A DNA stretch of 35,800 nucleotides. It comes from Hungatella sp. (GTDB lineage: Bacteria; Bacillota; Clostridia; Lachnospirales; Lachnospiraceae). The translations under genes and the position numbers were made by a program. The DNA lies in contig JAAWHU010000031.1 of NCBI GenBank assembly GCA_022796015.1, positions 1 to 35,800 of the forward strand. Direction: 5' to 3'. The notes below the pieces were generated by a model. That model was not told the origin of the DNA, ran no database searches, and saw only the letters and a program-made list of their open reading frames with translations. Positions 9,500-35,800 of this stretch are shown here, one piece after another (position 1 is the stretch's first letter; every line of letters begins with the position of its first letter).

Positions 9500-10963
9500 T
9501 TAAGCACCTCCTCCTAATGCATTCTGAATCATGGCAGGATCAAATTCAATGTTATTGGTGATATGTTCTGCCGGTGTCCAGAAAGCAATCTTCGTGTAAA
9601 ATACAATCTGACCATTCAAGATAGATGTAATAGGATTGTCCTCTTCGCTGAAGCTGATCTCCCCTCCTGCAATGCGTTCTGTACCACTTAAACTGTTCAA
9701 ATACTGGTTTTCCGCGTCTACCACACTCTCAATCAGCCGGTAATTAGTTGGATCATCTATTTTCTGCTTGTAGGATAAAATAAAATGGTTTCGATACCAG
9801 CTCATCATTCTCCTGCAGCAGATCCACCTGTCTTTAGGATCCGTTGTAGAGGGATAACTGGCAGTATTGTTTCCCCAAGAGTGCCATCCATTATCATTGA
9901 TTGCCGTTACAATCCCGAAAGAATTGACAAGAGCTGCCTGGGATGTATCTAAAGTTACTTCTGTCCCATCCTCAAGCACAGCGGAACTCATGTTCAAAAG
10001 TTCATTGGATGGGCTTTTGGCAGGCACATCACCATTTCTGGCATCTGTGTAAGCAGTCATGGCTGCCCATATGGCAGAATAGTCATAGACATCCTCTCCC
10101 AGCTTTACCTTAGGCCATAACAGAATTCCGTGTCGGCTGGCAAATCCCATGGCCTCTTTTCCCTCTTTCAGGCTGCTGTAGGTCTTATATTTTCCAGTAT
10201 CCATATCAACTGCGCACTCACATGTAAATACGCCATTTAGCCCTTCTGTTTTTGCTGCCAGTGCTGCTGCCACCTCTGGTTCTTTTGACCACCCTGGGGC
10301 CAGGAGCAGACCCGGGACCATGCCGAATCTGGGATATATCTGGCGCACCAGTTCAATTCCGCTCTCTTTCCCGGTCATCATATTATACCCACCAATAATA
10401 TCCTCTTTTGTAACCTTTGACGGATCCAACTGTGTCCCGGTTACTTTCACTTCCGTTACCGTGCCTGTCTTTTCTGTGGACAGCAGGGTAAGGTCCAGCC
10501 CTCCGGCCATATTAAACTCGGCCATATAATCCACATCCTGTTCCAGCCGCACGGCCCCCGTCTCTGAGGTGACGGACACTATAAGACCCTGCAACATAAT
10601 TCCCGGTTCGTTTATCCTTACTATTTTGGAAACTACTGGAACAGATTCTCTGGAATAATCTTTTTTGTGCTTTTGGGGATCCAGCACGTTAATAAAAATA
10701 ACCGGACTTATATTAAACACTTTAAAATTGGCGCTTATTGACTGGCATAGCGTATAATTCGCAAAATCACTGCAGTATCCCAGCTGTCTGACGGCCTCTC
10801 CGTAATTGTAGGCAATTATAGGATGATTGACCGCTTTTTCCGGTTTTTTAACCATATTCACAGGAGCTGTCCCGACTACAACCTGCAGCCCGGCTGTCCC
10901 GCTTACAGGGACGGCCAGCCTTGTATCCATCTCATTTGTATCTATCTGATGCAAATATGCCAT
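9500..10963 (-). CDS. Contractile tail sheath protein (P2 FI-like)
   Basis: A 487-residue sheath subunit. The P2 FI-type pattern is present: N-terminal 'TAGLQVVVGTAPVN', a central 'LLAPGWSKEPEVAAALAAKTEGLNGVFTCECAVDMDTG' (the sheath consensus 'APG.s....V..al...a...r'), the 'SPSNELLNMS' region, and the C-terminal segment 'IAGGEISFSEEDNPITSILNGQIVFYTKIAFWTPAEHI', which forms the inter-subunit beta handshake in sheaths. Its presence fixes the virion as a myovirus. ATG start; AAAGGAGAG lies upstream with slightly long spacing. It is followed two bases later by the tube gene. Confidence 0.95.
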   Translation of the reverse strand: MAYLHQIDTNEMDTRLAVPVSGTAGLQVVVGTAPVNMVKKPEKAVNHPIIAYNYGEAVRQLGYCSDFANYTLCQSISANFKVFNISPVIFINVLDPQKHKKDYSRESVPVVSKIVRINEPGIMLQGLIVSVTSETGAVRLEQDVDYMAEFNMAGGLDLTLLSTEKTGTVTEVKVTGTQLDPSKVTKEDIIGGYNMMTGKESGIELVRQIYPRFGMVPGLLLAPGWSKEPEVAAALAAKTEGLNGVFTCECAVDMDTGKYKTYSSLKEGKEAMGFASRHGILLWPKVKLGEDVYDYSAIWAAMTAYTDARNGDVPAKSPSNELLNMSSAVLEDGTEVTLDTSQAALVNSFGIVTAINDNGWHSWGNNTASYPSTTDPKDRWICCRRMMSWYRNHFILSYKQKIDDPTNYRLIESVVDAENQYLNSLSGTERIAGGEISFSEEDNPITSILNGQIVFYTKIAFWTPAEHITNNIEFDPAMIQNALGGGA

Positions 10964-22499: not shown

Positions 22500-23321
22500 T
22501 TACCCCTTCTCATCCATCGTTGCTTCAAACATGGTCATCTGCTTCCCTTCCGGCTCAAAATTCATCCATAGGATCTCTGTCTTTTTGGATGCTGTCTGGG
22601 AATAGCTTACTGCCTCTTCCCGGTGCCAGTGCCGGAGCCGGTCCTGGTACAGAGGGTTGTCATACCCGGAGATCAGCACCGGCCCCTTGTGATCCAGGAG
22701 TGCATCCAGAAGCTCCTCATGATCCTGATCTGACATCTCGCAGCGATACTGCTTTCCATGCCTGGTGCTGAGTATATAGGGTGGGTCAGCATAGATCAGG
22801 ACATTGGGAGAATGAAACCGCCGGATCAGATCCACCGCCGGCATACACTCAATCTGAACGCCTCTGAGGCGTTCTGCTGCTTCTAAAATCCTCCTAGGCA
22901 GGTCACACCAGTCTCTGGCGGCATAAGCCCGCTCCCGGCCCTGAACATCATTCTTCCAGCCCACCTTCTCTCCGTTGGTGCGGAAACCATGGCCCATGCT
23001 AAGGCGTATAAAAAAGTTTACTGCTCTTTCCAGTTTATCCTCCGGCTGTGAAACGAAAGCCTCATTGTAAACCTGCCTGGCATAAGGCGTATAGTAGATT
23101 TCATGAGCCAGGCGCTCCGGCTCTCTCCTGATCTGTTCAAACAGGTTTGCCACATTGCCGTCCAGATCATTGACCGTCTCAATATGGCTCCTGGGCTTGT
23201 TAAATAAAACGGCTCCGCTGCCAAAGTAAGGCTCCAAGTAACTGTGGTGTTCTGGAAAGAATCCTGTGATCCATTTGGTAAGGCCCCACTTGCTTCCTGG
23301 GTATTTTAAGAGGGCTCTCAT
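22500..23321 (-). CDS. DNA adenine methyltransferase (D12 class, Dam-like)
   Basis: A 273-residue N6-adenine methylase. Motifs in order: 'LLKYPGSKWGLTKWI' (motif X, residues 4-18), 'LEPYFGSGAVLFNKPR' (AdoMet motif I, 29-44), 'NDLDGNVANLFEQI' (51-64), and the catalytic 'IYADPPYILSTR' (DPPY at 179-182). The order X-I-IV is that of the alpha/D12 class. No partner restriction gene is present, so it is an orphan methylase that may protect phage DNA or modify replication timing. ATG with AGGAGG. Target sequence cannot be told. Confidence 0.95.
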   Translation of the reverse strand: MRALLKYPGSKWGLTKWITGFFPEHHSYLEPYFGSGAVLFNKPRSHIETVNDLDGNVANLFEQIRREPERLAHEIYYTPYARQVYNEAFVSQPEDKLERAVNFFIRLSMGHGFRTNGEKVGWKNDVQGRERAYAARDWCDLPRRILEAAERLRGVQIECMPAVDLIRRFHSPNVLIYADPPYILSTRHGKQYRCEMSDQDHEELLDALLDHKGPVLISGYDNPLYQDRLRHWHREEAVSYSQTASKKTEILWMNFEPEGKQMTMFEATMDEKG

Positions 23322-29759: not shown

Positions 29760-30099
29760 TCCTGCCCCGCCTCCTTCTCCCCCATTGTGATACTGCCTGC
29801 CAGATAAAAAATCCCGCCGCAAGGGCTGCCAGGCATTCCCCGCCATAGGCAGTCTTTCCTTCGCGCTCTATGTATGCCAAAGGCGCACAGTAACCATAGA
29901 TACTTACGGCCATAGCCGCCGACAAGACCGGGGGAGCCGCCCGGCTTCCAAGGAACCGTCCCGCGGCCTGTACCACCTGATCCCGCGCCTGCAGCAGGGA
30001 CAGAGATACCCCTGCTGCCCGATCTCTGCCAGGGCGGATACGTTCCAGCTCTGGCCACACTTCATGCAGAATAACTTTCGTACTTTCTTCATGTCTCAT
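29749..30099 (-). CDS. Uncharacterised protein with hydrophobic C-terminal half
   Basis: A 116-residue protein: polar N-terminus (MRHEESTKVILHEVWPELERIRPGRDRAAG), then alternating hydrophobic stretches 'APPVLSAAMAVSIYGYCAPLAYI' and 'YGGECLAALAAGFFIWQAVSQW', ending with a basic tail (GRRRRGRNGT). The two apolar stretches could be membrane helices. Start ATG with AGGTACAGGA. No family recognised. Confidence 0.55.
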   Translation of the reverse strand: MRHEESTKVILHEVWPELERIRPGRDRAAGVSLSLLQARDQVVQAAGRFLGSRAAPPVLSAAMAVSIYGYCAPLAYIEREGKTAYGGECLAALAAGFFIWQAVSQWGRRRRGRNGT

Positions 30100-30120
30100 T
30101 CCTGTACCTCGTTTATGGCT

Positions 30121-31080
30121 CTAATCCATTTTGATAACCGGCGTCACATCTCCTTGGACTGCTGGTAGCTGTCCGTTCCATTTGTCATATTTCTTCTGCT
30201 CCAGAAGCTCTGGTGTGAGAGAATCCGCAATCTTGCGGTTTGCTTCTGCCTCCGCCTGGGCCCTGATCCTCACAGCCTCTGCTTCTCCTTCTGCCTGGAT
30301 CTTTTTCTGTTCTGCCTGAATCTCAGCCTTCTGCCGCTCCTGTTCTGCCTGGATTAAGGCCACCTCTCTGTCTTTCTCTGCCGCCCGGCGGGCAATCTCC
30401 TGTTCCTTTTCTGCCACTGCAATGGCGGTCTGCTTGTCCAGCTCTGCTTTCTCAGCATCCTGTTTTGCCTGCTCTTTGGCCTGGATCTTGGCATACAAGG
30501 CATCATCCAGCTGGACGTCTATAATCAGAGCGCTGGAGATATTGATTCCATATTCCTCACACAGCTTGCTGTTTAAATACTCTGTAATGGCTGTGGAGAC
30601 CTCGGCTCTCTTATCGGAATAAATATCCATTACTGTAAATCTGGGGGTAACCTCTTTTACATAGGCGATAATGGAATTTTGCACCATGCTGTCTACAATG
30701 GATTCTCCGTCCATGCCGTTAAACCTGGTATAAAGATCCACTACCCTGCTGCTGAGGAAATTATAATTGACTGTCATGTTCAGCTTTACCATGCCGCCAT
30801 TAGCGGGGGCATCTATATGCCAGTCGGCATGCTCCTTCTTTCCGTAGTCCTCCGGACTGTTGCTGAACACAATCTGCTGCTGGGATACCGGATAGTTTTT
30901 CACCTTGGCCATAGGGCCAACAAAATGCCAGCCAGGGCTGAGAGTGGCTTTCCGGACTCCTTCCTTTGCTGTCCATACCACTCCGACTTCGCCCTGGTCT
31001 ACCTTTTTCATCGACTTTACCGTATAGGAAGCCCCAAGTACCGCTACTGCCATGATGATTAAAGCCACCTTCTTATTCAT
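30121..31080 (-). CDS. SPFH / prohibitin-family membrane protein
   Basis: A 319-residue protein with an N-terminal membrane helix (residues 4-20, 'KVALIIMAVAVLGASYT'), a prohibitin-like SPFH domain ('VDQGEVGVVWTAKEGVRKATLSPGWHFVGPMAKVKNYPVSQQQIVFSN...VKLNMTVNYNF'), and a long coiled coil of Ala/Glu/Gln/Lys repeats (~210-285, 'AEKEQEIARRAAEKDREVALIQAEQE'). SPFH proteins form membrane-bound ring assemblies. It is unusual as a phage gene and might shield or scaffold the replication site at the membrane, or act against host defence. Its start overlaps the stop of a tiny membrane protein gene. Confidence 0.88.
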   Translation of the reverse strand: MNKKVALIIMAVAVLGASYTVKSMKKVDQGEVGVVWTAKEGVRKATLSPGWHFVGPMAKVKNYPVSQQQIVFSNSPEDYGKKEHADWHIDAPANGGMVKLNMTVNYNFLSSRVVDLYTRFNGMDGESIVDSMVQNSIIAYVKEVTPRFTVMDIYSDKRAEVSTAITEYLNSKLCEEYGINISSALIIDVQLDDALYAKIQAKEQAKQDAEKAELDKQTAIAVAEKEQEIARRAAEKDREVALIQAEQERQKAEIQAEQKKIQAEGEAEAVRIRAQAEAEANRKIADSLTPELLEQKKYDKWNGQLPAVQGDVTPVIKMD

Positions 31081-31222
31081 CTTTCTCCTCCTTTAGGTCA
31101 TATTCCTTTTCAAATGTTCTTTTATCTCTCTGGATGCTGATCCACACCTTGCTGCCTATCCACAATATCAGGATTCCGGCCAGGCACAGAATGAGGAAAG
31201 CACCAATCCATAGGATCCACAT
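31073..31222 (-). CDS. Small single-pass membrane protein coupled to the SPFH gene
   Basis: A 49-residue gene: 'MWILWIGAFLILCLAGILIL' then 'WIGSKVWISIQRDKRTFEKEYDLKEEKDE'. It has an N-terminal helix of ~27 hydrophobic residues (1-25) and a charged C-terminal tail, so one membrane span is likely. GGGAGG lies upstream with rather long spacing. Its TAA lies inside the first codons of the SPFH gene (overlap of 8 bases), so the two are probably translated together and may work as partners at the membrane. Confidence 0.75.
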   Translation of the reverse strand: MWILWIGAFLILCLAGILILWIGSKVWISIQRDKRTFEKEYDLKEEKDE

Positions 31223-31240
31223 GGGCTCTTAGCTACCTCC

Positions 31241-31426
31241 CTACACTTCCACTTGCACGCACTTTTCCACACCGTCATATGTAAGATTTAATGTCTCCCC
31301 AGCTTTATCCCTGATGACGGCTTTGTTTCCATTCACTTCCAAGGTAAAATACCCGTTTACAAATCCATTATCTGACATCCACCTGCGGAATACGTATTCA
31401 GCTATGCTCCTGCAGCCTTTTATCAT
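31241..31426 (-). CDS. Uncharacterised small early protein
   Basis: About 61 residues from an ATG at 31426 with AGGAGGTGG eight bases upstream; a GTG four codons earlier is possible. The sequence 'AEYVFRRWMSDNGFVNGYFTLEVNGNKAVIRDKAGETLNLTYDGVEKCVQVEV' reads as helix followed by a small beta sheet. The 5' part overlaps the gene before it by about 29 bases. Function unknown. Confidence 0.65.
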   Translation of the reverse strand: MIKGCRSIAEYVFRRWMSDNGFVNGYFTLEVNGNKAVIRDKAGETLNLTYDGVEKCVQVEV

Positions 31427-31748
31427 CAGATGGTCCACCTCCTTCCGCCGTCTGTCTTTGATCCTTCTTCATCGCTTCACTTAAAGCCAGTATGTAGGCG
31501 GAAAAGACTTGGAACTGCCGCTCTCTGGAGTTCCCGGCTGCTTCCACAAGTATCTCTACTGTAGAATTAGCCGTGATATCTATCAATTCGGCTGGCTTAA
31601 GACCTCCTCCTGCCATAACTGTTTGAGAGACATGTCCCTCTTCTCCTGCTTTACGGATTCCTACTGCCACGATCATGTCACATGATTCAAGCTTTATGGT
31701 TCTTGGTCTTTGTCCTTCAAACTCTGACCTGATGGTTGCTTCTGTCAT
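31398..31748 (-). CDS. Uncharacterised early phage protein
   Basis: About 116 residues from an ATG at 31748 (AAGGAGAAG upstream), overlapping the preceding stop as ATGA. Contents: 'EFEGQRPRTIKLESCDMIVAVGIRKAGEEGHVSQTVMAGGGLKPAELIDITANSTVEILVEAAGNSRERQFQVFSAYILALSEAM'. The first half is beta-rich, the second helical. No family recognised. Confidence 0.65.
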   Translation of the reverse strand: MTEATIRSEFEGQRPRTIKLESCDMIVAVGIRKAGEEGHVSQTVMAGGGLKPAELIDITANSTVEILVEAAGNSRERQFQVFSAYILALSEAMKKDQRQTAEGGGPSDDKRLQEHS

Positions 31749-31987
31749 TTTGCTTCTCCTTTCATTTTGATGTGGAATCTCTTTTTTTCTTCCCACTTAA
31801 GTTCTATTTCAAGGCGTTCTTTGTAATTGGAGTAGTACCTTGCGGAAACAATGCATTCAATCACGTTATCGGCTGTATATTTTTCTAATAACGGAGTCTG
31901 ATCAAATTTCTCTACAGCCTGCCGGATCTGTTCTAAAGACTCCCTCAGTATTTTGTTTTCGATCTCCAAACGATCCACTTTTTTCAA
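31745..31987 (-). CDS. Coiled-coil early protein
   Basis: About 80 residues. I chose the TTG at 31987 because AAGGGGG is well placed upstream; a GTG seven codons earlier has no good site. 'VDRLEIENKILRESLEQIRQAVEKFDQTPLLEKYTADNVIECIVSARYYSNYKERLEIELKWEEKKRFHIKM' begins with a coiled-coil heptad pattern. It overlaps the following gene as ATGA. Function unknown. Confidence 0.6.
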   Translation of the reverse strand: MKKVDRLEIENKILRESLEQIRQAVEKFDQTPLLEKYTADNVIECIVSARYYSNYKERLEIELKWEEKKRFHIKMKGEAK

Positions 31988-32000
31988 GATATATCCCCCT

Positions 32001-32222
32001 TCATCCACCTCTTGGCATTGCAGTTACCTGTGCTTTAATTTCTTTAAGCCGCCACATCTCAAATCCTTCCGTATCGAAGAAAATTGGGCTATTCTTTTTT
32101 GTAGGATTACTTTTGCTGGCAAAATTCTGGTTACGGCTGTGATATGCATACATTAAATATTCCTGGGGAAATCCCATTTTTTGGAGCTCAGATATTCTCA
32201 TAATCGGCTTTGGGTATTTCAC
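32001..32222 (-). CDS. Excisionase-like / helix-turn-helix DNA-binding protein
   Basis: A 73-residue protein: 'MRISELQKMGFPQEYLMYAYHSRNQNFASKSNPTKKNSPIFFDTEGFEMWRLKEI'. The layout (short HTH 'ISEL..MGFP...L..A', then 'SPIFFDTEGFE.W') is the MerR/excisionase-like winged helix common as the first early gene in Firmicutes phages. GTG start with GGAGGTGAG upstream. Its position at the head of the long minus-strand early operon fits a regulator or excisionase. Confidence 0.7.
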   Translation of the reverse strand: MKYPKPIMRISELQKMGFPQEYLMYAYHSRNQNFASKSNPTKKNSPIFFDTEGFEMWRLKEIKAQVTAMPRGG

Positions 32223-32228
32223 CTTCTC

Positions 32229-32291
32229 TCACCTCCTTCTTATCTGGTGTCTGATCATTCTCTTCAATTTACTGATCTTAGGGCTGTACAT
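32229..32291 (-). CDS. Possible 20-residue basic peptide ahead of the early operon
   Basis: An ATG at 32291 opens MYSPKISKLKRMIRHQIRRR, a very basic peptide ending just before the next gene. A weak GAGGAAGCGGAG site is upstream. It could be a leader peptide for the early operon or chance. It partly overlaps the left end of cassette A's repeat, so it cannot be separated from that region by sequence alone. Confidence 0.3.
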   Translation of the reverse strand: MYSPKISKLKRMIRHQIRRR

Positions 32292-32294
32292 GGC

Positions 32295-32358
32295 GCTCCG
32301 CTTCCTCTAAAATCCCTGTTGCTATTCCCCACCCTTCCTCTTATACTGTATGTACAGG
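32295..32358. repeat. 64-bp promoter-leader repeat, copy A
   Basis: Matches positions 33161-33224 at 63 of 64 bases. It covers the promoter and the first part of the 5' leader of two neighbouring cassettes, while the coding parts that follow are unrelated. Copy C (about 33853-33906) is diverged but keeps the -35/-10 spacing and the hairpin. Confidence 0.9.
32319..32347 (+). promoter_or_regulatory. Cassette A promoter
   Basis: TTGCTA (32319-32324), 17-base spacer, TATACT (32342-32347). The same -35/-10 pair with identical spacing precedes two other plus-strand genes in this region. Transcription should start near 32354, so the leader hairpin begins almost at the 5' end. Confidence 0.8.
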
Positions 32359-32378
32359 CCGCTGGCGCGGCCGAGTAC
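32352..32378 (+). promoter_or_regulatory. Cassette A 5' leader hairpin
   Basis: GGCCG (32357-32361), loop CTGGCG, CGGCC (32368-32372), flanked by GTAC on both sides (32352-32355 and 32375-32378). Copies B and C have different stem bases but keep pairing and keep a 6-nt loop of type CTGSCR. It ends ~12 bases before the ribosome binding site. Confidence 0.75.
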
Positions 32379-32398
32379 GGAAGAAAGGAGAACCAGCA

Positions 32399-32830
32399 AT
32401 GGCAACATATAAAATATCTGACTTGTATAACATACTCAGCGAACTTGCCAATGATGGATATGAATATGTTAATATTGACCTTATTGAGGCAGTCGGTGAA
32501 GAACCCGAATCGTTATCCCTTGACGCAATTGAAGATTCTTTTAGCACAGTTAATGACTCTGTTGAATGTTGTACTATCCCAGAAGATTACTCTATCCACA
32601 ATAAACTTACACGCTCTATCAGACCAACTGACTATTGTTGTGAAATGAATTTCACCTATGAAGAACTGGGAACCATACATCACGCAGCCACTAACGCACT
32701 CGAATACTTCAGCGACCTACTCAAAGATCCTTCTCAGCCAAAAGATATCGTAAAAGAAATTAAACAGTCTTCTGTTGAATTGCGAAATCTCCAGGCTAAA
32801 CTTGCACATTTTTTAAAGCGTCTTCACTGA
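32399..32830 (+). CDS. Cassette A acidic protein
   Basis: A 143-residue protein on the strand opposite to the operons around it, with its own promoter, leader hairpin and AAAGGAG site. It is acidic: about 26 Asp/Glu against 12 Lys/Arg. The N-terminus 'MATYKISDLYNILSELANDGYEYVNIDLIE' alternates helix and strand; a C-terminal helix 'PKDIVKEIKQSSVELRNLQAKLAHFLKRLH' is the only basic part. No family recognised. It is laid out like a moron gene. Its end overlaps the end of a convergent gene by 18 bases. Confidence 0.8.
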   Translation: MATYKISDLYNILSELANDGYEYVNIDLIEAVGEEPESLSLDAIEDSFSTVNDSVECCTIPEDYSIHNKLTRSIRPTDYCCEMNFTYEELGTIHHAATNALEYFSDLLKDPSQPKDIVKEIKQSSVELRNLQAKLAHFLKRLH

Positions 32831-33004
32831 ACATCTAACCCTTTTGCCCGAAATGCGTGCAATGCGCGCCGCCGCCTTTCGGGCTATTTCTTTTACAAGA
32901 TCCTCTTCCGCTTTTCCTGCTCCTGTTATTGTCATCTGGATCTCAGACTTCCTTGGCATTGCATTAGTATGCATCCCTAACGGAAACTTCTTCCTTATAA
33001 ACAT
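32813..33004 (-). CDS. Small basic protein convergent with cassette A
   Basis: 63 residues from an ATG at 33004 with GAGGAGGG upstream; the in-frame upstream extension has no better site. The second half 'SEIQMTITGAGKAEEDLVKEIARKAAARIARISGKRVRC' looks like one strand plus a long helix. Its last 18 bases overlap the end of the plus-strand 143-residue gene. The partner of cassette B (33530-33706) has the same strand-helix plan, so the two may be distant relatives. Function unknown. Confidence 0.7.
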   Translation of the reverse strand: MFIRKKFPLGMHTNAMPRKSEIQMTITGAGKAEEDLVKEIARKAAARIARISGKRVRCSVKTL

Positions 33005-33121
33005 TCTTTCCCTCCTCACTGGCGTGGAAATGCTTATCCTGTTCCACGTCTACATTCATGGCATCTTATGATTTCTCCCAATTCGTTTATTTGTTGCTAC
33101 TGATTCATCCAGCTAATATAC

Positions 33122-33154
33122 CAATGTCATTTACTTAAGCCTTCCCTCCGTTAA
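33122..33154. repeat. 33-bp conserved intergenic element, copy 1
   Basis: Matches 33812-33844 at 31 of 33 bases, and its first 16 bases match 34369-34384 with three expected purine/pyrimidine changes. Each copy lies upstream of the minus-strand convergent gene (and, in two cases, just left of a plus-strand promoter). On the minus strand it contains GGAGGG and an ATG 12 bases further on, but the frames behind it are short. Role unknown. Confidence 0.7.
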
Positions 33155-33160
33155 GTTAAG

Positions 33161-33224
33161 GCTCCGCTCCCTCTAAAATCCCTGTTGCTATTCCCCACCC
33201 TTCCTCTTATACTGTATGTACAGG
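33161..33224. repeat. 64-bp promoter-leader repeat, copy B
   Basis: Differs from 32295-32358 by one base. The following leader diverges only in the hairpin stem, where paired changes keep the structure. Confidence 0.9.
33185..33213 (+). promoter_or_regulatory. Cassette B promoter
   Basis: TTGCTA (33185-33190), 17-base spacer, TATACT (33208-33213), identical to the cassette A promoter over its whole length. Confidence 0.8.
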
Positions 33225-33238
33225 TCACTGCCATGGCC
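33223..33238 (+). promoter_or_regulatory. Cassette B 5' leader hairpin
   Basis: GGTCA (33223-33227), loop CTGCCA, TGGCC (33234-33238), with one G-U pair. It corresponds to the cassette A hairpin, with compensating stem changes. GTAC flanks both sides as in copy A. Confidence 0.75.
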
Positions 33239-33264
33239 GAGTACACAAGGAAGGAGGATCAGCA

Positions 33265-33546
33265 ATGGGATACTTACCTATTCCAGTAGACATGTATTTT
33301 GAAGACTTTGCGATGGAAGTCCTGGAATACAATGTACTAAACAATAACAATGTGATTGGCACTTACCAAGGTCTTTCCAACAGTGATGAAGATGGAACAT
33401 ATATCGGATTTAAGATGAGCGACCAGCCATTAATTTCTGTTGGTAACACTTTATGTACAGTTGATGGATTAGAAGAATACCAAATCATCAAGGTTTCCTA
33501 TGACCGTTATGAAGACAAGCCAGAATTACTCAAGGCATATTATTGA
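33265..33546 (+). CDS. Cassette B acidic protein
   Basis: A 93-residue protein with AAGGAGG before the ATG. It is very acidic: 16 Asp/Glu against 5 Lys/Arg. The sequence 'VDMYFEDFAMEVLEYNVLNNNNVIGTYQGLSNSDEDGTYIGFKMSDQPLISVGNTLCTVDGLEEYQIIKVSYDRYEDKPELL' reads as a small beta-rich fold. No family recognised and no resemblance to the proteins of cassettes A or C, despite the shared promoter and leader. Its last 17 bases overlap the convergent minus-strand gene. Confidence 0.82.
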   Translation: MGYLPIPVDMYFEDFAMEVLEYNVLNNNNVIGTYQGLSNSDEDGTYIGFKMSDQPLISVGNTLCTVDGLEEYQIIKVSYDRYEDKPELLKAYY

Positions 33547-33706
33547 TTTTTTCCGCTATGTGCAGATAAAATTTTCGTGCGCTTTGAGCAATAAAGCTGA
33601 TTGTTTCTCTCATTTCTTCTGATGTAGCACAATCAGCTTTTATTCTCATTTCTAATACAGTTCCTTTTTCATTTTTGAAAACTTTCTTTTCAGAAAATGC
33701 TCCCAA
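33530..33706 (-). CDS. Small protein convergent with cassette B
   Basis: About 58 residues from a TTG at 33706 with GGGGTGAG upstream; a TTG six codons earlier is the alternative. Sequence: 'FKNEKGTVLEMRIKADCATSEEMRETISFIAQSARKFYLHIAEKI'. A strand (MRIKA) is followed by a long helix containing EE, as in the cassette A partner. Its end overlaps the 93-residue gene by 17 bases. Function unknown. Confidence 0.65.
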   Translation of the reverse strand: MGAFSEKKVFKNEKGTVLEMRIKADCATSEEMRETISFIAQSARKFYLHIAEKINNMP

Positions 33707-33727
33707 TATCTCACCCCCCTTCAATTA

Positions 33728-33820
33728 TTACCTCGCCTCCTTCCTAAGCTCTTCTGTCTGATGCAAACAAATAGTCAAAATCATATTCTGGAAACAACTC
33801 AGCTTTTGTAGCAATATCAT
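33728..33820 (-). CDS. Doubtful short frame upstream of the cassette B partner
   Basis: An ATG in the conserved 33-bp element opens 30 codons (MILLQKLSCFQNMILTICL...) ending just before the 58-residue gene. The neighbouring frame, which has no start, reads more like protein (KAELFPEYDFDYLFASDR). It may be a remnant of an interrupted gene rather than an active one. Confidence 0.25.
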   Translation of the reverse strand: MILLQKLSCFQNMILTICLHQTEELRKEAR

Positions 33821-33844
33821 TTATTTAAGCCTTCCCTCCGTTAA
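33812..33844. repeat. 33-bp conserved intergenic element, copy 2
   Basis: 31 of 33 bases match copy 1 (33122-33154). It ends nine bases before the -35 box of the cassette C promoter. Confidence 0.7.
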
Positions 33845-33852
33845 AATTTGTC

Positions 33853-33881
33853 TTGCTCCGCCATCTCTCCTGCCTTATACT
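33853..33881 (+). promoter_or_regulatory. Cassette C promoter
   Basis: TTGCTC (33853-33858), 17-base spacer, TATACT (33876-33881). The spacer differs from A and B but length and both boxes are kept. Confidence 0.8.
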
Positions 33882-33890
33882 GTACTCACA

Positions 33891-33906
33891 GGCTCCTGCC
33901 AGAGCC
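33891..33906 (+). promoter_or_regulatory. Cassette C 5' leader hairpin
   Basis: GGCTC (33891-33895), loop CTGCCA, GAGCC (33902-33906). The loop is the same as in copy B. The outer pair CTGTA/TACAG can extend the structure. Confidence 0.75.
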
Positions 33907-33930
33907 TAATACAGAAGAAAGGAGACTATC

Positions 33931-34149
33931 ATGGCAAATTATATTAATCCTGAAATCGCTGCACATAATATTGCATCAGCATTTTGCCAACATGAAATAC
34001 AGAATCTTCCAGAATCTGCTTTCGCTCCTGGTGATATTAAATATTCATGTACTGCAGCCCAAAAAATGTGGGAATTGTATTCCAATGTCTATGATTTTGT
34101 ATTTGATGCCGCTATGGATGAAAATAATTCTTCTATGCATGATGAATAA
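33931..34149 (+). CDS. Cassette C acidic protein
   Basis: A 72-residue protein with GAAAGGAG before the ATG, and about 11 Asp/Glu against 2 Lys. Sequence 'MANYINPEIAAHNIASAFCQHEIQNLPESAF' then a helical, aromatic 'QKMWELYSNVYDFVFDAAMDE'. No family recognised. It is the smallest of the three cassette products. Its 3' end overlaps the convergent gene by 61 bases, more than in A and B. Confidence 0.8.
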   Translation: MANYINPEIAAHNIASAFCQHEIQNLPESAFAPGDIKYSCTAAQKMWELYSNVYDFVFDAAMDENNSSMHDE

Positions 34150-34346
34150 TTAAATTCATCCACTTTCCTCAATGGGTCTTTTTTTGTCATGTTGCTCATG
34201 ACAACTCCCATTGAGGAAAATAAATATTCTATCTCCTTCAAATTGAATTTTTCTTTGTCTAAATAATCAAACACATAGTTAGCTGCTTGGGCAATCTTAT
34301 ATGGATTAACTCCATTTTGTTTCATATGTATAATATGCCTGTTCAT
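34089..34346 (-). CDS. Protein convergent with cassette C
   Basis: 85 residues from an ATG at 34346 with GAGGGGGTGAAGG upstream. 'MKQNGVNPYKIAQAANYVFDYLDKEKFNLKEIEYLFSSMGVVMSNMTKKDPLRKVDEF' is all helical. It overlaps the end of the 72-residue gene by 61 bases on the other strand. Not related in sequence to the partners of cassettes A and B. Function unknown. Confidence 0.7.
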   Translation of the reverse strand: MNRHIIHMKQNGVNPYKIAQAANYVFDYLDKEKFNLKEIEYLFSSMGVVMSNMTKKDPLRKVDEFNYSSCIEELFSSIAASNTKS

Positions 34347-34368
34347 CCTTCACCCCCTCTCTAGGCCC

Positions 34369-34384
34369 CAATATCATCTACTTA
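34369..34384. repeat. Partial copy of the conserved intergenic element
   Basis: CAATATCATCTACTTA matches the first 16 bases of the element at 33122 and 33812, and then runs directly into the left 29-bp inverted repeat. Confidence 0.6.
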
Positions 34385-34413
34385 GTCCCTTTTTAAGATG
34401 GCGGTTGCTGATG
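34385..34413. repeat. 29-bp inverted repeat, left copy
   Basis: Perfect reverse complement of 35118-35146 over 29 bases. Together they bracket a complete divergent regulator module of about 700 bp. Flanking bases do not match, and no target-site duplication is seen. Confidence 0.93.
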
Positions 34414-34428
34414 ATACTCCTTGGATTA

Positions 34429-34575
34429 TCATGCTGTCTGCTTTGGGGGATTGCGTGGCTGGCTAATCTCCTGCTGTGCCAAAATACCCATAATAAAAAT
34501 TCTTACCTTTTCAACAGTGCTTTCATCATTGATTTTTTCAATATCAGCTTTTAAAGTTTCTTGTGCTTTAGTCAT
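34429..34575 (-). CDS. Small switch protein with QPRNPP end (module 1)
   Basis: A 48-residue gene: 'MTKAQETLKADIEKINDEST' then 'VEKVRIFIMGILAQQEISQP' and RNPPKQTA. AAAGGAGG lies upstream of the ATG, and a consensus minus-strand promoter is placed 33-61 bases upstream. It is divergent from the repressor gene, which is the Cro/antirepressor position. The C-terminal QPRNPPxQxA is shared with the corresponding gene of module 2 (35495-35668), though the rest differs. Function unknown. Confidence 0.75.
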   Translation of the reverse strand: MTKAQETLKADIEKINDESTVEKVRIFIMGILAQQEISQPRNPPKQTA

Positions 34576-34593
34576 CACTTTTCCTCCTTTCTG

Positions 34594-34606
34594 TTGCTTT
34601 TAGCAA
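34594..34606. promoter_or_regulatory. Operator O1 (TTGCT-N3-AGCAA)
   Basis: Palindrome TTGCT-TTT-AGCAA just downstream of the minus-strand -10 box. Confidence 0.7.
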
Positions 34607-34607
34607 A

Positions 34608-34636
34608 ATTATATATTGCTTTAAGCAATTTGTCAA
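34608..34636 (-). promoter_or_regulatory. Module 1 leftward promoter
   Basis: Minus strand TTGACA (34636-34631), 17-base spacer, TATAAT (34613-34608), a perfect consensus. A palindrome ATTGCTT-T-AAGCAAT (34615-34629) fills the spacer. Confidence 0.9.
34615..34629. promoter_or_regulatory. Operator O2 (ATTGCTT-T-AAGCAAT)
   Basis: Perfect 15-bp palindrome in the spacer of the leftward promoter; shares TTGCT/AGCAA half-sites with O1. Confidence 0.8.
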
Positions 34637-34657
34637 GCTATTTTTCAACATTTAGTA

Positions 34658-34686
34658 TTGACATAAGCAATACTATTTGCTATGCT
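34658..34686 (+). promoter_or_regulatory. Module 1 repressor promoter and operator O3
   Basis: TTGACA (34658-34663), 17-base spacer, TATGCT (34681-34686). AGCAA-N6-TTGCT (34666-34681) overlaps spacer and -10, with the same half-sites as O1 and O2 in the opposite arrangement. Divergent promoters with three related operators form a lysis-lysogeny type switch. Confidence 0.85.
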
Positions 34687-34707
34687 AATTTCAGTGAGGT
34701 GATAATT

Positions 34708-35034
34708 ATGATTTGTGAAAGATTAAAAGTTCTTCTAAAAGAACTTGGAATGTCTCAGAGACAATTTGCCATAAAAATAAATCTTGATGCTGGTTATTTC
34801 TCCAGAATCATGCAAGGGAAAGTCAATCCCCCTGACAGAATCCTTTTGTTAATTGAAAATGTATTTAATGTTAATAAAAATTGGTTAGAAAATGGTGAAG
34901 GGGATATGTTCTCGAATCAAGGCATTTCTCTAGCAAAAAAGCAAGTTTTAGAATCTATTGACACCCTTAATGATGAACAAGTAAATGCAGTTTCTTCATT
35001 CATAAAATACCTAACCGAAAATAAAGAGAAATAG
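34708..35034 (+). CDS. Cro/CI-type HTH repressor (module 1)
   Basis: A 108-residue regulator. N-terminal HTH: 'RLKVLLKELGMSQRQFAIKINLDAGYFSRIMQGKVNPPDRILLLIENVFNVNKNWLENGEG', a standard lambda-repressor-like five-helix domain. A short helical C-terminus (ISLAKKQVLESIDTLNDEQVNAVSSFIKYL) may dimerise; there is no LexA-type protease domain, so cleavage-independent induction is likely. ATG with GAGGTGA. The longer in-frame upstream frame includes the promoter and is not coding. It probably binds the TTGCT/AGCAA operators. Confidence 0.9.
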   Translation: MICERLKVLLKELGMSQRQFAIKINLDAGYFSRIMQGKVNPPDRILLLIENVFNVNKNWLENGEGDMFSNQGISLAKKQVLESIDTLNDEQVNAVSSFIKYLTENKEK

Positions 35035-35117
35035 CACATATATACCAATGCAGGAATGAAATCCACTCCTGCACCAGCCCACATGGTAGTGGATAATACA
35101 TATTTTCCAACGTTATA

Positions 35118-35146
35118 CATCAGCAACCGCCATCTTAAAAAGGGAC
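35118..35146. repeat. 29-bp inverted repeat, right copy
   Basis: Perfect reverse complement of 34385-34413. It lies ~85 bases past the repressor stop. Confidence 0.93.
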
Positions 35147-35183
35147 ATTCGTTTAGGACTGGAAGCCCTAAAAAAGGAGCAAG

Positions 35184-35207
35184 AAGAAGGGGAATAGCCC
35201 CTTCTTT
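35184..35207 (+). terminator. Terminator-like hairpin after the repressor
   Basis: AAGAAGGGG (35184-35192), loop AATAG, CCCCTTCTT (35198-35206) followed by T, C, T. A strong 9-bp stem with a short T-run. It works in either direction in principle (CTTGCTCCTTTTTT on the minus strand). Confidence 0.65.
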
Positions 35208-35437
35208 CTGCATATTTATTGGCTCTTATTCACTGGGTACACAATTCCGAAAAGGGAGTAACATTATTGAAGATTTCCCTAAAATCAAACCTAAAAACGC
35301 AAAAATCTTTTCCGAAAAAATTGATCAGGAAATTGACCGTTTCCGTTCCTACTATGAGCAAGGGGTGATTTCTGCTGAAAAATTTGTAAAGATCGTCGAT
35401 GCGATAAAAAAAGGAAAATAATTTTTTACTGCTCCGC

Positions 35438-35466
35438 AAGGCCTTTGGAACTTCCAGAGGCCTTTT
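35438..35466 (+). terminator. Terminator between modules 1 and 2
   Basis: AAGGCCTTTGG (35438-35448), loop AACTT, CCAGAGGCCTT (35454-35464) with one T-G pair, then TT. The stem follows the SHOCT-like fragment and faces the end of the module 2 minus-strand gene. Confidence 0.7.
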
Positions 35467-35494
35467 CAATCGCCATCCAAACAATAATCTACTT

Positions 35495-35668
35495 CTATGA
35501 CTGGGCCATCTGCATTGGGGGATTGCGTGGCTGTTCATATCCTAATTCTGCCATAGTGGTCATCTTGCCAGCTCTGAAACCAGCAACGAATACTTCTAAT
35601 ATATCTGCTTCCTGGTCGGGCATATCTTTTATACTTTCAATTATTTGTATCTTTTTTCCACTTTGCAT
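35495..35668 (-). CDS. Small switch protein with QPRNPP end (module 2)
   Basis: A 57-residue gene: 'MQSGKKIQIIESIKDMPDQE' then 'ADILEVFVAGFRAGKMTTMA' and ELGYEQPRNPPMQMAQS. AAAGGAGGAA lies upstream of the ATG. It occupies the same divergent position as the 48-residue protein of module 1 and ends in the same QPRNPPxQxA, so the two are paralogues in their C-terminus. The apolar central helix may be for dimer contacts. Function unknown. Confidence 0.75.
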   Translation of the reverse strand: MQSGKKIQIIESIKDMPDQEADILEVFVAGFRAGKMTTMAELGYEQPRNPPMQMAQS

Positions 35669-35690
35669 TTTATTCCTCCTTTCTACTTTT

Positions 35691-35752
35691 CTGAGATAAG
35701 AATATCATTTCTTAGATAAGTTGTCAATATTATTTTTCTTGACTGAGAAAAG
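35691..35752. repeat. Operator-like repeats of module 2
   Basis: CTGAGATAAG (35691-35700), CTTAGATAAG (35711-35720) and CTGAGAAAAG (35743-35752) are related 10-mers spread over both divergent promoters. They are unlike the TTGCT/AGCAA sites of module 1. Confidence 0.65.
35699..35727 (-). promoter_or_regulatory. Module 2 leftward promoter
   Basis: Minus strand TTGACA (35727-35722), 17-base spacer, TATTCT (35704-35699). It would drive the 57-residue gene. Confidence 0.8.
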
Positions 35753-35767
35753 TTTTTCTGGTAAACT
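35739..35767 (+). promoter_or_regulatory. Module 2 rightward promoter
   Basis: TTGACT (35739-35744), 17-base spacer, TAAACT (35762-35767). It points to the gene starting at 35785. Confidence 0.75.
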
Positions 35768-35784
35768 TGCTTTGAGGTGATGAA

Positions 35785-35800
35785 ATGGAATTAAAAGATA
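35785..35800 (+). CDS. Start of a second regulator gene (partial, cut by window)
   Basis: ATG GAA TTA AAA GAT with GAGGTGA upstream, the same ribosome binding site as the module 1 repressor. Only five codons are visible. Position and layout suggest a second repressor. Confidence 0.5.

Follow-up and report, generated by a model that had tools for sequence, protein, structure and literature searches.

Why should three small genes without any sequence in common stand behind almost the same promoter and leader in a single prophage? The question arises from a stretch of 35,800 nucleotides of Hungatella sp. (assembly GCA_022796015.1, contig JAAWHU010000031.1, positions 1 to 35,800), called here the window, whose terminase, portal, head, tail-sheath, replication-initiation and repressor genes mark it as a prophage. 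Cassettes A, B and C lie on its plus strand, and each comprises a promoter, a hairpin with a CTGSCR loop, a ribosome-binding site and then an unrelated small gene. I propose that they are probably three swappable morons, each with its own predicted promoter and a 5'-end hairpin likely to shield the mRNA from decay, for expression in the dormant prophage.

The promoter and leader of cassette A (32312-32396, plus strand, as are all cassette features) match a covariance model of the element at 80.8 bits, with the -35 TTGCTA at 32319-32324 and the -10 TATACT at 32342-32347. Its hairpin (32353-32377) pairs an outer UAC (32353-32355) with GUA (32375-32377) and an inner stem GGCCG with CGGCC (32357-32361 with 32368-32372) around the loop CTGGCG (32362-32367); the position of the -10 predicts a transcript start at about 32353-32354. 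Cassette B (33178-33262, 78.0 bits; -35 at 33185-33190, -10 at 33208-33213) has the stem GGTCA/TGGCC (33223-33227 with 33234-33238) and the loop CTGCCA (33228-33233), and cassette C (33846-33930, 75.4 bits; -10 at 33876-33881) has GGCTC/GAGCC (33891-33895 with 33902-33906) around the same loop (33896-33901). A promoter scan called TTGCTA-17-TATACT in A and B; TTGCTC-17-TATACT in C falls below the scan threshold and was read from the sequence. Leading up to the first GG of the stem, A and B have 63 of 64 bases in common. With up to two mismatches, the -10/leader motif is found three times in the window, against 0.04 expected from shuffles. The promoters, the identity of A and B, the stems and loops, and the charges of the products given below had all been described in a first-pass annotation of the window, and they hold on re-reading.

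That annotation had also claimed covariation from these three copies, which by themselves are insufficient for it, and had named a covariance search beforehand as the test that could refute it. The search found many more copies with the stem kept, and it is this wider family that proves the covariation. The recurrent element consists of a TTG-17-TATACT promoter followed at near-fixed spacing by a hairpin (UACA, stem, YYGCCR loop, stem, GAGUAC) that ends just 5' of the ribosome-binding site. Scanning viral contigs with a DNA pattern gave at least 120 stretches, true and chance matches mixed. With a stricter pattern the yield was 29 viral and 19 genome stretches, the latter comprising 10 titled Lachnospiraceae and others titled Extibacter, Roseburia, Acetatifactor, Enterocloster, Blautia and the like. 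A model of promoter plus leader was built from 84 copies for which a stem had been required; at E<=1e-3 it matched 69 of the 397 genomes from the window's family, 48 of them at 40 bits or more and about a third weakly. At E<=1e-4, and with the window's own genome counted in each sample, 28 of 392 genomes in a sample of the order, three other families included, and 6 of 398 in a sample of the phylum had matches. A leader-only model matched 14 of 295 order-sample genomes at E<=1e-3, own genome again counted. In the own genome, which is incomplete, the strong matches are the three of the window and one on another contig, the remainder reaching at most 26.9 bits; the leader-only model returned the same four copies and nothing else at E<=1. 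The collection stood at 180 copies, or 161 after duplicate removal, and further search brought it to 192 entries, of which 190 are distinct (L017 and L226 are one phage and were counted once). Rfam (release 15) gave no match at E<=1 in 30000-35800, which rules out a known Rfam family as the identity of the leader.

Is the conserved object an RNA or a DNA site? Because a stem had been required in picking the 84 copies of the model, the pairing test was repeated on copies picked without it, by fetching loci with the DNA pattern and choosing copies by promoter and flanks. In these loci (82 of 84 copies, those with inner lengths that allow a 6-nucleotide loop) 204 of 214 inner pairs form, compared with 65% (maximum 72%) after shuffling of the 3' halves. 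With model-fetched loci added, 277 of 287 inner pairs form, against 63% shuffled, in 111 of 113 copies; two with odd spacing were omitted from the count, and part of this pool was fetched by the structure-aware model. Across 129 leaders, other families included, 140 cells are changed on both sides, compared with 31.8 in shuffles, and two-sided changes occur at each of the five upper stem pairs; because the model supplied many of these leaders, the count is tilted towards structure (129 of 131 leader references were used, and a few align poorly). The outer UAC:GUA pairing is kept in 90.8% of cells.

The ends of the loop tell a similar story. Loop positions 1 and 6 read C-A in 52, U-G in 23, U-A in 4 and C-G in 1 of 86 distinct hairpins, and 27, 13, 2 and 1 respectively among the 46 from pattern-fetched loci only. 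C-A and U-G are isosteric wobble pairs in RNA, and the swap between them is the exchange expected of an RNA. The promoter is less constant than the hairpin. The distance from -10 to stem is 9 nucleotides in 126 of 141 copies of the first group; in other families it is 9 in 12 of 25 copies, where the automatic -10 call is less reliable and one copy, L206, belongs to the window's own family. There the -10 may be TATCCT or TAAAAT, with hairpin and ribosome-binding site retained. Taken together, these comparisons support a functional RNA hairpin rather than a DNA dyad, as the first-pass annotation had argued: pairing is kept by two-sided change in the wider family, and the DNA dyad discussed below does not covary.

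If the leader is the fixed part, what follows it? The 152 products that were clustered fall into 82 clusters without detectable kinship (four of 161 copies have no open reading frame; all 152 have a word resembling a ribosome-binding site before the gene, and a few start choices are doubtful). Genes A, B and C are in three separate clusters, which agrees with the earlier statement that they share no sequence. Gene A (32399-32830, 143 amino acids, net charge -14) has 10 database matches at E<=1e-3, one of which, at 99%, is probably the window's own record; its predicted structure model is poor. Gene B (33265-33546, 93 amino acids, net -11) has 18 matches, a relative 48% identical behind the same leader in another bacterial family (L216), and a predicted fold that is nearest, weakly, to phage neck/stopper proteins. 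Gene C (33931-34149, 72 amino acids, net -9) has 12 matches, one (100%) probably the window's own record, and a 32% identical relative behind the leader in L218. Another relative of gene C, P0033, carries an N-terminal extension that by eye resembles translated leader; copies of the leader may therefore mislead start annotation in databases. None of the three products has a match in Pfam, and PHROG gave a single weak match, for A.

The first-pass annotation had noted the acidity of the three products and had guessed from it at an anti-defence role. The charges themselves stand, but strong acidity is rejected as a feature of the class: the median net charge is -3, only 14 of 152 products are at -9 or below, and as a group they are mildly acidic relative to other small open reading frames of the same loci. 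The guessed role found no support: no family named for anti-defence appears among the matches to Pfam, PHROGs and NCBIfam, although no dedicated anti-defence library was searched. In that domain scan, which covered 80 of 82 cluster representatives, the clearest functional matches are defence families, namely Abi_alpha/PDC-S47 and a TIR effector domain. They concern few of the 80 representatives: L116 (PDC-S47, with one member Abi_alpha), L023 (TIR effector domain), one PDC-S16 and two weak matches. The window's own products match none of the phage-defence models. The cassette products are probably for the most part genes of benefit to the lysogen, some of them in phage defence.

The flanks of the copies indicate how the genes come to differ. 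In the 188 copies whose flanks were long enough to compare, similarity is confined to the upstream side in 141 pairs and to the downstream side in 32, and extends to both in 6; these pairs are not independent, since one group of related phages contributes many of them. Loci L051 and L067 do not differ in the displayed stretch from the -10 into the gene, agree at 99% over 200 bp downstream and are unrelated upstream; L034, L046 and L051 have about 156 bp upstream in common at 95-96% and carry different genes. A further example is in the window's own genome. A second prophage there matches the window at 31273-31481, 31754-31993 and 32225-32264 (88-93%), up to its own leader, and has a gene with a DUF6173 domain in the slot of gene A. 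This second prophage (L184, contig C30) has its leader before the DUF6173 gene at 9789-10213, and also an invertase-type integrase and a CI-like repressor. Judged from these alignments, shared and unshared flanks show recombination at the leader. The 82 clusters, the breaks in the flanks and this second slot bear out the proposal of a modular array in which coding parts are exchanged behind a fixed unit.

Morons are defined by a promoter and a terminator of their own. At the level of sequence, the cassettes show a consensus promoter per unit, a site among phage genes near the repressor, and a gene that varies at the same site between related phages. The family-wide hairpin, the unrelated genes, the layout and the flank breaks together lead me to regard them as accessory (moron) cassettes of prophages that can be exchanged for one another and have a structured leader in common.

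Where in a prophage do such cassettes lie? Layout was counted in loci of at least 6 kb (91, or 90 after duplicate removal), with helix-turn-helix (HTH) genes found by a local profile grown from the window's repressor. In 79 of 90 loci a related HTH gene is found no more than 3 kb from the leader. Positions drawn at random from the central half of each locus reach 57 loci on average and 69 at most; in the easier control, with random positions anywhere in the locus, the figures are 80 of 91 against 46 and a maximum of 59. Wherever copies form an array of two or more (45 arrays), they share one orientation. An HTH gene on the same strand lies within 3.5 kb downstream of the last leader in 70 of 90 loci, and in 51 of 90 a small opposite-strand HTH gene also precedes the leader, giving the full order of Cro-like then CI-like gene. 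As far as gene order tells, in loci with a Cro-like gene the cassettes sit just beyond cro, oppose the early lytic operon and point towards the repressor. Among flanking genes (109 of 133 listed open reading frames scanned for domains) repressors are commonest, followed by metalloprotease, replication-initiation and antirepressor families.

Two annotated phages illustrate the arrangement. In Ruminococcus phage phiRgPS_6 a lone leader gene, gp25, lies between an antirepressor and the annotated Cro-type gene, against the early genes; the Cro-type gp23 is opposed to it, and the HTH gene gp22 and the integrase are on its strand. Lysogens of this phage in R. gnavus JCM 6515T are reported in PMC10072058. 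Blautia phage Montmirail has a lone plus-strand leader gene among opposed early genes, with a regulator and the integrase on the same strand and no cro annotated. A second leader match in Montmirail (L259; 5609-5649, plus strand, 34.5 bits) has no annotated plus-strand gene and may point to a missed one.

How might such a unit work? The predicted first base of the transcript is the A of ACAGG or the base preceding it, so that the hairpin would form about the first 26 nucleotides of the message and hand over directly to the ribosome-binding site. Flush with the 5' end, the hairpin would shield the mRNA from decay. According to the part of PMC3997798 that deals with it, the B. subtilis RppH (BsRppH) requires at least two unpaired 5' nucleotides. 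The host genome carries an RNase J-like gene and Nudix matches; given these and the requirement of RppH, a 5' shield is the simplest use of the hairpin. Any gene slotted into the unit would then be expressed during lysogeny from the unit's own promoter, and opposing transcription would silence the cassettes upon induction. That the cassettes are expressed in lysogeny is suggested by where they lie and on which strand; the model for this is a Salmonella prophage locus which, in the account available from PMC7067206, lies antisense to lytic genes and is transcribed from its own promoter.

Several observations weigh against this interpretation. Promoter and start site are predictions from sequence, the outer UAC-GUA pairing is lost in cassette C, and Vienna gives the outer UAC a pairing of only 0.33, 0.42 and 0.52. 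In 26 of 192 copies no perfect stem of 4 bp or more encloses a 6-nucleotide loop, and the ribosome-binding site is predicted to be on average only 56% unpaired across 160 leaders. None of the eight Nudix matches of the host was assigned to RppH, and RppH proper was not identified. The layout is not universal either: a same-strand downstream HTH gene is absent from 20 of the 90 loci, and only 51 have the full Cro-like-then-CI-like order. A strong stem-loop and possible terminator follows each gene on the plus strand (32846-32884 after A; 33585-33650 after B, possibly serving either direction; 34164-34220 after C), yet a terminator scan called none of them. Finally, the conserved apical loop and the A/GA inner loop exceed the sequence conservation that a plain 5' shield needs.

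This last point explains why a trans-acting factor stays a strong rival. On that account the hairpin binds an RNA-binding protein or other factor, encoded by host or phage, which makes unrelated genes one regulon, and the conservation of the YYGCCR loop with its C-A/U-G exchange and of the A/GA inner loop across several families, before many unrelated genes and behind differing promoters, is what one would look for. No candidate factor was found, though no systematic search was made for one, and the own genome, as far as it is complete, has no strong leader match outside prophage copies and so offers no hint that a host gene is autoregulated in this way. I therefore hold this account as a tentative one, well behind the 5' shield. 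In its fullest form, to which I give the same guarded credence, a new phage RNA family with a 5'-flush hairpin and a wobble-closed tetraloop would be read by a conserved host factor and would join dozens of unrelated accessory genes, defence included, in one plug-and-play lysogeny regulon across several bacterial families. A simpler relation to the host, in which phages copied a host autoregulatory leader, is rejected, since a search of the own (incomplete) genome with the leader-only model returns just the four prophage copies.

The remaining explanations do without a stabilising or protein-binding RNA. The patch might be kept mainly as a homology tract for recombination between cassettes, without RNA function; the breaks in similarity do map to promoter and leader, and the prophage pair of the own genome has common flanks around different genes. 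However, a homology tract predicts conserved letters rather than changed letters with pairing kept, and the stems and loop ends covary, which makes this an improbable account of the whole element. It is more improbable still that the element is an operator, with a repressor bound to the dyad CTGTA-N2-TACAG over the -10. Pairing in that dyad reaches 93.8% across the alignment of 84 copies, and CI-like genes adjoin the element, but not one of its cells is changed on both sides, and several copies from other families lose the left half while keeping the TACAGG side and the hairpin; the operator is rejected for its lack of covariation. Least credible of all is attenuation of transcription, or a switch that controls translation by hiding the ribosome-binding site, even with a hairpin in the 5' leader and a ribosome-binding site predicted to be on average only 56% unpaired. 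No U-run follows the stem, after which the consensus is GAGUACAUAAGAAAGGAG, and the conserved hairpin does not include the ribosome-binding site, which mostly comes 24-27 nucleotides after the start of the stem. Both attenuation and masking are rejected on these grounds.

How does the element, read as a moron leader, compare with known systems? Phage boxB and HK022 put RNAs are small conserved hairpins near the start of phage transcripts; here the leader is not followed by a long operon that could be antiterminated, and its loop is different. The first-pass annotation had likened the array in idea to the start-associated sequences (SAS) of mycobacteriophages, and the analogy is apt. As described in the sections on SAS and extended SAS (ESAS) of PMC3203893, these short conserved sequences of cluster K phages likewise stand just upstream of non-structural genes of varied families, mostly in one orientation. 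In the same sections, SAS is a 13-bp motif, GGGATAGGAGCCC, at the ribosome-binding site and start codon, whereas the context of the leader's ribosome-binding site is GAAAGGAG; moreover, the inverted repeats of ESAS are judged there to give no support to RNA pairing; in the leader, by contrast, both stems and loop ends covary. In the aligned leaders, read by eye, the GGGATAGGAGCCC motif was not seen, and, unlike SAS, the leader has a -10 at near-fixed distance.

Prophage morons and accessory loci, in the portion of PMC7067206 that presents them, resemble the cassettes in having their own predicted promoter, in lying among phage genes, antisense to the lytic side and near the repressor, and in varying between related phages; unlike the morons described there, many unrelated cassette genes have one structured leader in common. 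The ompA, papA and aprE leaders, known here from reference titles in PMC3997798 on 5'-terminal stem-loops that stabilise mRNA, are like the predicted extreme-5' hairpin with a ribosome-binding site after it, but each is a single native leader, whereas the leader studied here recurs widely as a family whose loop is conserved and whose geometry is predicted. Candidate structured RNAs of human microbiomes, as summarised in the accessible text of PMC8040213, include some near phage or integrase domains, one of them in Firmicutes, and the leader may overlap with these candidates. No description of the leader was found in the open-access library that was searched. What would be new here is morons sharing one structured leader, the nearest concept, SAS/ESAS, differing in sequence, position and RNA pairing.

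Some further features of the window complete the picture. A small minus-strand gene overlaps the 3' end of each cassette gene (32813-33019, on the early lytic side, for gene A; 33530-33724 for B; 34089-34346 for C), so that cassettes and early lytic genes alternate, and the CI-like HTH repressor lies downstream of the cassettes on their strand (34711-35034, plus). A second repeated patch, TCATTTAYTTAAGCCTTCCCTCCGTTAA, occurs upstream of leaders B and C at 33117-33155 and 33805-33844; by eye its minus-strand reading is a ribosome-binding site plus ATG, and parts of it recur in loci L033, L130 and L202. In the early region, a 319-residue protein (30121-31080, minus strand) matches phrog_200, labelled lipoprotein, and looks by eye to be of SPFH/prohibitin type. 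The prophage also has a DNA methyltransferase gene at 22500-23321 on the minus strand.

What would the element mean for these phages? If the proposal is true, a search for the leader lists many hidden, domain-less lysogeny genes for which strand, start codon and likely time of expression are known. This would make the dark matter of gut prophages directly accessible and open a route to mining new phage-defence genes. Finally, it would describe a phage expression module whose RNA part is conserved while promoter and gene are both exchanged.

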